Origin: Petrosia ficiformis
Lineage: Eukaryota > Porifera > Demospongiae > Haplosclerida > Petrosiidae
DNA length: 64,000 bases
Direction: 5' to 3'
NCBI GenBank assembly: GCA_947044365.1
Contig: OX345647.1
Span: 3,157,501-3,221,500 of the forward strand
Position 1 is the first letter of the stretch; each line of letters begins with the position of its first letter. The notes beneath the pieces were generated by a model. It searched no databases, was not told the DNA's origin, and was given only the letters and a program-made list of their open reading frames with translations. Below are positions 35,573-57,821 of this stretch, one piece after another. The position numbers were made by a program, and so were the translations under genes.

Positions 35573-38500
35573 ATGGTGTTTAGAAAAGATCAGTCTCTTA
35601 GACTTTTTGCAATTTTCTACTGTGTTTTGTCTTTTCTTTACCCTATAAGTGCAAGGAAGCCAAGAGAAGACCAAACAGAAGCTCCCAACTCACCTACATC
35701 GTTTAGTTATCAAGAAAAGGTGTGACTTAACTGTCAATTATAATTATTACTATAATATGTATATATATATAATTATATATATATATATATCATACTTAGC
35801 TCAAATATCAAAGAAAATAACTGGGATATAAATGTGATATAAGCACATGGGTCTTATATAACCCTTTGATGTTTGATATAAACCTATCACCTTAAAACAC
35901 CTTAACATTGACTCAATGAATAGAATTGTTTACATTGCAATCAACAATCAAGTAACAGCAAATTTTTTTTTCAAAATTAGTGTTCATTAAGGTCCTTTTC
36001 TTTGCAGCAAGAAGGGGCAAAGGGTATTCTGAATTTTCTGAACGCATATAACAGAGGATACTGAATAGAATTGCATATATTGTCCTGGGTGGATATTGGT
36101 CTCCATTTTGATTTCTTGTCTCAGCAATGAATAAGGTTAACCACTTATTAAGCTCTTCTTTAGTACATGAAGGTGACAAAATACTCTCAGGGCATTGCTC
36201 CTCACCATTTCGGTCGTTGAACTCATACACCCAGTCTTTCAAGATTTTGAATGCCCATCGGGTATTAGCATCTGTAGTTTTAGCTACCTGACGTTTTTCT
36301 AAATTTTTGATATTGTTTTCGGAGACAACACTAAACCGGCGCTCCCTACTTAGGGAAAGTGAAAGCTTGTGTTTCTTTGCTGCAGAAGGCAGCTCACAAT
36401 TTTCTTTCTCTGCCATCACAATGACCTGATTGACCTCTGTCTCTGAGCATGCGCAATGATCCTTTGATGTTTGAGCTAAGTAAGATATATATCTTGGTTA
36501 TATCAACACTATACATAATAATTAGTATTGTGATATTAGTGTATTTGTATATAAATTAAAGCTGGAACTATTATTTTATAATAGGTGAATTTATTGTTGT
36601 ATGTAATGAATACATTATGAGAAAGGCAAAACTACTGTAACTGTGTGTAGCTTTTCCTAATTTTTCATCTTCAGTTTGGACCAGATGAGTGTTTTAGTCT
36701 TGTAGTTTGTGTCACTGTGGTCAATGTCAGGTTTTATAAAACCTGGGGTTACTGCTGTATCAGTATATATAAATAAATGTAAATGTATTATATAAAATTA
36801 AAAGTATTGTGATAATTGTATAGTATGTATAGAGTGTGTTTCTTTGCCCCAATAATGGAATTTTTGTCTGTCTTAAAATAAATTATAAGTCAGAAAACTT
36901 TCTTGTGATTCACTAGTATTCTATTAGTACAACTAGTAACCATGGTAACATACATGTACTATACTAACATACTCTAATTATTATAAATATAGGGTAGATA
37001 CTGTACTCGAGGTTTCTACGTGCAATAGAACTACCGTGGAAACAGTTTAATTACTGAGGGTGGAGCCCGAAGTAATTAATGTTTCCAAGGTAGTTCTATT
37101 GCGTACGTGGAAACCAAGAATACAGTCTCGAAGCAATTTAGATTATAGTTATTACTTTGTTGGGTAGAAGCCATAACAAGAAAGCCTCGTCTTTAAATTG
37201 CAGAAAGACAACAAGGTAATCGATAGCGCGAGTGTTTTGCTCTCGAGGGCAACCCCGACATCTCTATTTTGTCAGCTGTGTAACTTTTGGATTTCAAAAA
37301 GCTGAAGATTTTAGCTTACTTAGTTGGACAGAAGACCTGTTAAGAAGGGCCATAACCATTCTTTGTTTGTTAATAGAAAGCAGCAAGTATTTTTATGTAG
37401 TCGGCATTCAACGCCCACACTTCAGCGACTTTCTCAGTTGATCGCTTGTAAACATCAACAGATCCAGCCTTACAACAAACTTTGCTTCTGTTCGCTGTGT
37501 GAAATTCTTATAGCAACATCGCAACAGGTTTACTAAATAATTATAGATTTACTGACCAATTAAAAGTAGGTTTACAACGGGATTTAGATCATACCTAACA
37601 GAAATCAACCAATCAGATTGCTCAAAAATGGGTTAATAGTGTTGATTAGAGCACAGTTTAATGCGCATGCTACGTTGTTATACCCATACATTAATTGAAG
37701 TCAATCAAAACGCTTTGTTGGTTAACAACTAGATTCATAGTTGTTAACCACGGCTAAATAAGCTAATTAGTATGGCTTCAAAGGACAGATTTGCTACTGT
37801 AACAAAATAGTTAGCAATGCAGTACGATGCTACAAATGCCCATCAGTTGATCATGATTGATTTGTTTCTAAGGTTCTAGTACCCTCAACTTCCAATGCAT
37901 CTAGTCAGATTAAAGGACCCATAATCAACATAAACTTCTATAACAATTGAACTTCAAGAGTAAATTATGTTATTCAACTCATCATTATTTCATATTATTC
38001 AATTCAACATTATTAATACTACATATATACACATGTCATTCTGTAATAGATCTAAGTAACTTAGAGCCCTCGTGAGAGTGCTCTAACCAACACAATTGCA
38101 CCCTAATTGCCCTCAAAGCACTCGAAAATACTCGTGATACGCCCTCGTATTTTATCGTGTTCTTGGGCAAATAGGATGCAAAAGTGTTGGTTAGAGCACT
38201 CTCACGAGGGCTCTAACTATTACTTAGAAGCCTCTAATTGACCAATCAGATTGCAGCATTTTAATGAGCTATAATCTAATTATATTTATTATAATAAAAT
38301 AAATATAATTGTATAAATTATAATCATTTCATTATTATTGTTTAGTATAATTATTGTATATCTTGTTTTGAAGATGTTTTAGTCACCTGGCATAATGTAC
38401 ACTTAAAAATGCATTAACTACTCAATGCACTGCTACATTTGTAATAACATTCTTCATGGTTCATCAAGTGTTACATGTATAATATGGTAATCAATAAAGG

Positions 38501-57821: not shown

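Follow-up and report, generated by a model that had tools for sequence, protein, structure and literature searches.

The gene at positions 35573 to 57821 of a stretch of DNA from the sponge Petrosia ficiformis (64,000 nucleotides of contig OX345647.1, positions 3,157,501 to 3,221,500; hereafter the window, in whose coordinates features are given) raises the question of whether a signal-like start together with MRH and IPT domains can belong to the same protein as an NSF-type AAA ATPase and, if so, where such a protein would work. NSF is an ATP-driven machine that separates membrane-fusion proteins in the cytosol, and we know of no case in which it is combined with MRH or IPT domains. An initial annotation of the window had proposed this combination and knew of no described protein with it; a literature search, which took in few subscription papers and no preprints, likewise found no description of such a protein. 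The reading favoured here, with a probability of about 0.7, is that the locus is a second NSF gene of sponges, in which MRH and IPT domains preceded by a signal peptide would stand in the place of the SNAP/SNARE-binding N-domain, and whose product would remodel or disassemble proteins of the secretory lumen.

The exons were rebuilt from the window sequence. Central to the question is exon 4, which had been described as one uninterrupted frame from the IPT-like domain into the start of NSF D1, and this was borne out: an open frame (43037–43675) spans the exon and encodes the IPT-like part together with the beginning of D1. The features of the gene are listed below, with the evidence in brackets.

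35573..35719, + strand: exon 1, signal-like start (hydrophobic core residues 11–22) and S/T/P-rich stretch (rebuild; hydropathy comparison)
38888..39092, + strand: exon 2, MRH domain, first half (rebuild; MRH alignments)
40730..41032, + strand: exon 3, MRH domain, second half (rebuild; MRH alignments)
43086..43670, + strand: exon 4, IPT/TIG-like domain, charged linker, NSF D1 start (open frame; Pfam TIG in Dysidea relative)
43721..43767, + strand: exon 5, D1 (rebuild; match to solved NSF)
44555..44635, + strand: exon 6, D1 Walker A, GPPGAGKT (rebuild; family alignment)
45976..46040, + strand: exon 7, D1 pore loop, KYLGESE (rebuild; family alignment)
46256..46359, + strand: exon 8, D1 Walker B, IIIDEIE (rebuild; family alignment)
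46918..46996, + strand: exon 9, D1 (rebuild; match to solved NSF)
47378..47455, + strand: exon 10, D1 sensor 1 and arginine fingers, LLRPGRFE, across exons 10–11 (rebuild; family alignment)
49446..49490, + strand: exon 11, D1 (rebuild; match to solved NSF)
49544..49703, + strand: exon 12, D1 lid (rebuild; AAA_lid_3)
51379..51474, + strand: exon 13, D1-D2 linker (rebuild)
51884..52034, + strand: exon 14, D2 start (rebuild; match to solved NSF)
52206..52267, + strand: exon 15, D2 Walker A, GPKGTGKT, across exons 14–15 (rebuild; family alignment)
53480..53562, + strand: exon 16, D2 (rebuild; match to solved NSF)
54697..54830, + strand: exon 17, D2 Walker B, IVLDD (rebuild; family alignment)
56313..56475, + strand: exon 18, D2 (rebuild; family alignment)
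56618..56756, + strand: exon 19 of the initial annotation, probably outside the main transcript (unmatched in P0001, P0004 and P0005)
57536..57821, + strand: corrected last exon, D2 end with CxC-C-C motif, tail of uncertain extent, stop; start at 57519 in the initial annotation (corrected model; family alignment)

The 20 exons initially described have 19 introns, all GT-AG, with consistent phases and a sum of 1009 codons plus a stop, all of which was reproduced, but this length counts a probably false exon. Exon 19 was rejected, as it has no counterpart in the three relatives that read through that point (P0001, P0004 and P0005, see below), and because their D2 runs straight past its place it is probably not part of the main transcript. 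Exon 18 joins the acceptor at 57536 in frame, by which the match to P0001 (IHKLGGGQFLLPSN there) is restored, and the corrected model has 19 exons and 957 amino acids. After CIMSLSSR the final 36 residues of the modelled protein have no counterpart in P0001, whose end falls there; a possible donor site was seen by eye at that point of the window, and the extent of this tail is unsure.

Two large protein searches gave matches, each scoring about 8000 candidates and listing 120, and statements on proteins outside sponges hold among the matches listed. With residues 330–1009 as query, five proteins (P0001–P0005) outscored all others among the 120, which were mostly NSFs of plants, algae and protists; an alignment of these first four with the window protein recovered two more, P0121 (partial, Geodia barretti) and P0126 (461 amino acids). 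P0002 is from Amphimedon queenslandica, where it is named only 'Vesicle-fusing ATPase', and P0003 is an 'uncharacterized protein isoform X3' of Dysidea avara, so that the relatives with a named sponge source are those of Amphimedon, Dysidea and Geodia. P0001 (904 amino acids, contig of 3352 b) and P0004 (860 amino acids, contig of 2757 b) each run in one frame from a signal-like start into D2, and as long open frames on short contigs they appear to be spliced transcripts. The last residues of P0126 depart from the family pattern and were left out of the counts. Residues 1–385 of the window protein match six of the eight compared proteins (P0001, P0002, P0003, P0004, P0126 and P0121) at 30–39% identity and E-values of 2e-35 to 2e-78. 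They do not match P0005 at E 0.01, and that protein, which by eye apparently starts within the end of the IPT-like part, is neutral on the front end. On these alignments the fusion of the front end to the ATPase is common to sponge proteins, beyond chance, and is not an annotation error, since the six relatives carry the same join. That MRH/IPT and NSF are not known from one protein had favoured the view that two genes, one for a secreted MRH-IPT protein and the other for an NSF paralogue, were joined by mistake; given the single open frame of exon 4 and the six occurrences elsewhere, that view was rejected, its probability being negligible.

In the ATPase part, residues 389–821 align with NSF of known structure through both D1 and D2 (E 2e-108 for the best chain, 3j94_A), identity to human NSF is 44% across residues 390–819, and the D1 trees and fold comparison agree with a tandem D1-D2 ATPase of NSF type, as initially proposed. 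In the family alignment the D1 Walker A GKT is kept in 8/8 members covering it, and each of the seven that extend over the other D1 motifs retains K[YF]LGESE in the pore loop, the DE-box, TNR at sensor 1 and LLRPGR. By alignment, the D1 ATPase motifs are therefore intact across the family, and the open frame together with these motifs ruled out a pseudogene. The D2 Walker A GKT is kept in 6/6. The P-loop cysteine of human NSF is replaced by A, S, N or T in all eight family members, and a CxC-C-C motif stands at the end of D2 in three of four.

The front end differs from that of NSF. A comparison of residues 1–385 with human NSF gave no match at E 0.01, and these residues align with MRH and IPT domains instead, in agreement with the stated loss of the NSF N-domain. 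A 12-residue stretch with mean hydropathy of at least 2.0 lies within the first 40 residues of 6/6 family proteins with complete starts, compared with 7/215 other proteins from the same searches (14 proteins not beginning with Met were excluded, and P0121 and P0005, with incomplete starts, were counted on neither side). A plain hydropathy scan found no clear membrane span from the start to the AAA part. Eight front-end cysteines show no variation among the members long enough to include them. Exons 2 and 3 encode a segment with the cysteine/KPR pattern of MRH domains. With hhalign, the family alignment reached a probability of 95.4 against six mannose-6-phosphate receptor domains together, and of 2.2 against the cation-dependent receptor (CD-MPR) alone. 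The MRH beta-barrel fold is thus present, and the MRH claim of the initial annotation stands. Other searches of this part gave little: a Pfam run on seven MRH segments returned 0 families, a search of PDB sequences restricted to the front part gave three matches, to designed proteins (best E 0.07), and a viral fold library gave 1/288 matches at E 0.001 or better, with a root mean square deviation of 31.9. A protein search with residues 45–400 found 0/1602 candidates at E 0.001, and carries little weight as it also missed P0001–P0004, which were within its length limits and do match.

Whether this MRH domain binds sugar is another matter. We take the sugar-site residues of CD-MPR to be Gln, Arg, Glu and Tyr. 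Arg152 and Tyr187 are invariant in 7/7 members with CD-MPR-like spacing; Glu178 is also invariant but lies 7, not 8, residues before Cys, so that its equivalence to the sugar-site Glu is uncertain. The Gln is absent from its position in 6/6 members covering it, and likewise from the IGF2R domain 11 sequences aligned alongside. A classical mannose lectin was rejected on this ground, and the 'glycan-recognition' role initially assigned fails as worded: docking would probably be protein-protein, or to an unusual glycan, and not classical mannose binding. For the part encoded by exon 4, an IPT domain is likely, as Pfam finds TIG in the Dysidea relative. The precomputed Pfam list for that protein also carries PF27394.

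Taken together, the types of domain, the cysteines and the start resembling a signal peptide are best read as pointing to a luminal position, as had been suggested, and the conserved front-end cysteines and the CxC-C-C motif at the D2 end fit an oxidising lumen. In such a scheme the signal peptide would direct the chain into the endoplasmic reticulum (ER), where the MRH-IPT part would fold with disulfides and serve as the substrate-docking part. Six subunits would assemble as a D1-D2 double ring, and ATP hydrolysis by D1 would, through an aromatic pore loop that is conserved, pull on a luminal or secretory-pathway client much as NSF pulls on SNAREs, the outcome being the remodelling or disassembly of proteins of the secretory lumen. 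SNARE-complex disassembly with alpha-SNAP is unlikely, because the N-domain is absent. As the NSF N-domain is lacking, the family is not NSF in the strict sense, but it is of NSF descent and probably works like NSF.

Several observations weigh against a luminal NSF-type machine. The gene model of Petrosia ficiformis is built from genomic DNA. In the window protein Pfam recognises no MRH and no IPT domain, residues 50–413, searched in two pieces, have no match, and precomputed Pfam lists show TIG in only 1/6 relatives. The full-length model of P0001 (predicted TM score 0.49) has a predicted local distance difference test score below 50 over residues 19–127, a range that takes in the first half of MRH. 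The 19-residue hydropathy peak at the start of the window protein (1.72) is nearly equalled by the next (1.62, residues 726–744, in D2), in P0003 the start (1.04) falls below the D2 peak (1.29), and cytosolic human NSF peaks at 1.51. Hydropathy is a blunt tool, neither a signal-peptide nor a topology predictor, and does not separate a signal peptide from an anchor that would leave the whole protein facing the cytosol and cytosolic clients. Such an anchor is very improbable, in that MRH and IPT domains with conserved cysteines are mostly found in oxidising compartments; IPT domains are found in cytosolic and nuclear proteins as well.

The end of the modelled protein lacks a KDEL-type signal, and the D2 Walker B varies, being LDD in four members, LDN in P0004 and LDS in P0005. 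Both points, and the scarcity of ATP outside cells, would suit a secreted or extracellular protein whose AAA part is a non-motor oligomeric scaffold for an MRH-IPT receptor part. We consider this unlikely, since the D1 Walker B, sensor 1 and LLRPGR in 7/7 members and the Walker A GKT in 8/8 would not be expected of a dead motor. The front part is also less conserved (30–39% identity) than the whole protein (39–58% in the four fullest relatives), and there is a Met in exon 4 shortly before D1. These features would fit a gene with two products, a luminal form from one transcript and a short cytosolic NSF without N-domain from a start in exon 4 (e.g. Met 370); the initial annotation had itself named transcript starts between exons 3 and 4 as something that would count against its architecture. 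We give this only a small chance: P0001 and P0004 continue from a signal-like start to D2 in a single frame, the invariant cysteines are kept in the region before D1, and the cytosolic form would be without any known SNAP-binding part.

Petrosia ficiformis has another NSF, on contig C16 (about 5159600 to past 5163200), of which three D1 pieces are 65–70% identical to human NSF. It likely carries an N-domain, to judge from two short, weak matches to human NSF (56% over 16 columns and 27% over 41, each at E 0.88) and from one exon, the first, recognised by eye; a genome search with the CDC48_N Pfam gave one match, below cut-off and on a different contig, and none at this gene. In a D1 tree the C16 gene falls with mammalian NSF (97/91); the sponge family described here, P0005 included, forms a separate clade (99/99) outside other NSFs. 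P0005 is a long branch, without which the family branch is weaker (91/81 and 93/65 in two D1 trees). These trees used 25 and 32 hand-picked rows, of which 23 and 30 came from the 236 proteins found, the other two being the window protein and the C16 NSF. A single clade of the family with metazoan NSF was not rejected by the approximately unbiased test (p 0.324), and the split of the family from other NSFs may have occurred in sponges or earlier. A separate observation concerns an algal-transcriptome (mmetsp) protein, P0034 (1088 amino acids), which has a signal-like start and, by eye, an extra Cdc48-type AAA domain and NSF D1-D2, and is perhaps another NSF sent across a membrane.

Compared with NSF/Sec18, the sponge protein shares the tandem D1-D2 AAA domains, Walker A/B, pore loop, sensor and arginine fingers, but has a signal-like start, MRH and IPT in place of the N-domain, and its family differs in the replaced P-loop Cys, the extra C-terminal cysteines and a probably luminal location. 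With the mannose-6-phosphate receptors and IGF2R domains, ERLEC1 and OS-9 it shares the MRH fold and cysteine/KPR pattern, and differs in lacking the sugar-site Gln and in being fused to an ATPase. Unlike plexins and their relatives, it has a single IPT/TIG domain next to an ATPase. Torsins belong to a different AAA+ group and have one ATPase domain. The analogy to torsins drawn initially holds for the expected location only, as AAA+ proteins in the ER/secretory lumen; the machine itself has two ATPase domains of NSF type and supplies its own arginine fingers, and is not a torsin-type single AAA+ domain. According to a 2020 review, the nuclear envelope and ER network have no AAA+ proteins other than torsins, which lack integral catalytic features and require cofactors such as LAP1 (PMC7175109).

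Elsewhere in the window, two UNC93-like membrane-transporter genes (33645–35423, + strand, and 22489–24685, − strand) appear by eye to be diverged duplicates in opposite orientation. Sirtuin-like exons of SIRT6/7 type (GAGISTASG; 61292–61718, + strand) and zinc-finger/RING-type exons with RAG1-like or TRAF-like resemblance (26522–28931, + strand) were also recognised by eye. A long CT microsatellite (51620–51880) lies immediately 5' of exon 14, and intron 1 holds a 194-amino-acid open frame on the opposite strand (35913–36497, − strand), by eye possibly transposon-derived.

We lean towards seeing in this family an independent second entry of AAA+ proteins into the secretory lumen, that is, a catalytically complete double-ring unfoldase of sponges from the NSF lineage, whose MRH-IPT part would recognise luminal or secreted clients and which would be an ER/Golgi machine for protein disassembly with no known counterpart. 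Torsins are described as the sole and catalytically incomplete AAA+ proteins there (PMC7175109); the sponge family, by its sequence, keeps the catalytic features. If this is true, an N-domain swap can re-aim a SNARE-type disassembly motor and move it across a membrane, and the family would offer a natural test of the modularity of NSF and of the role of a powered unfoldase in the lumen.
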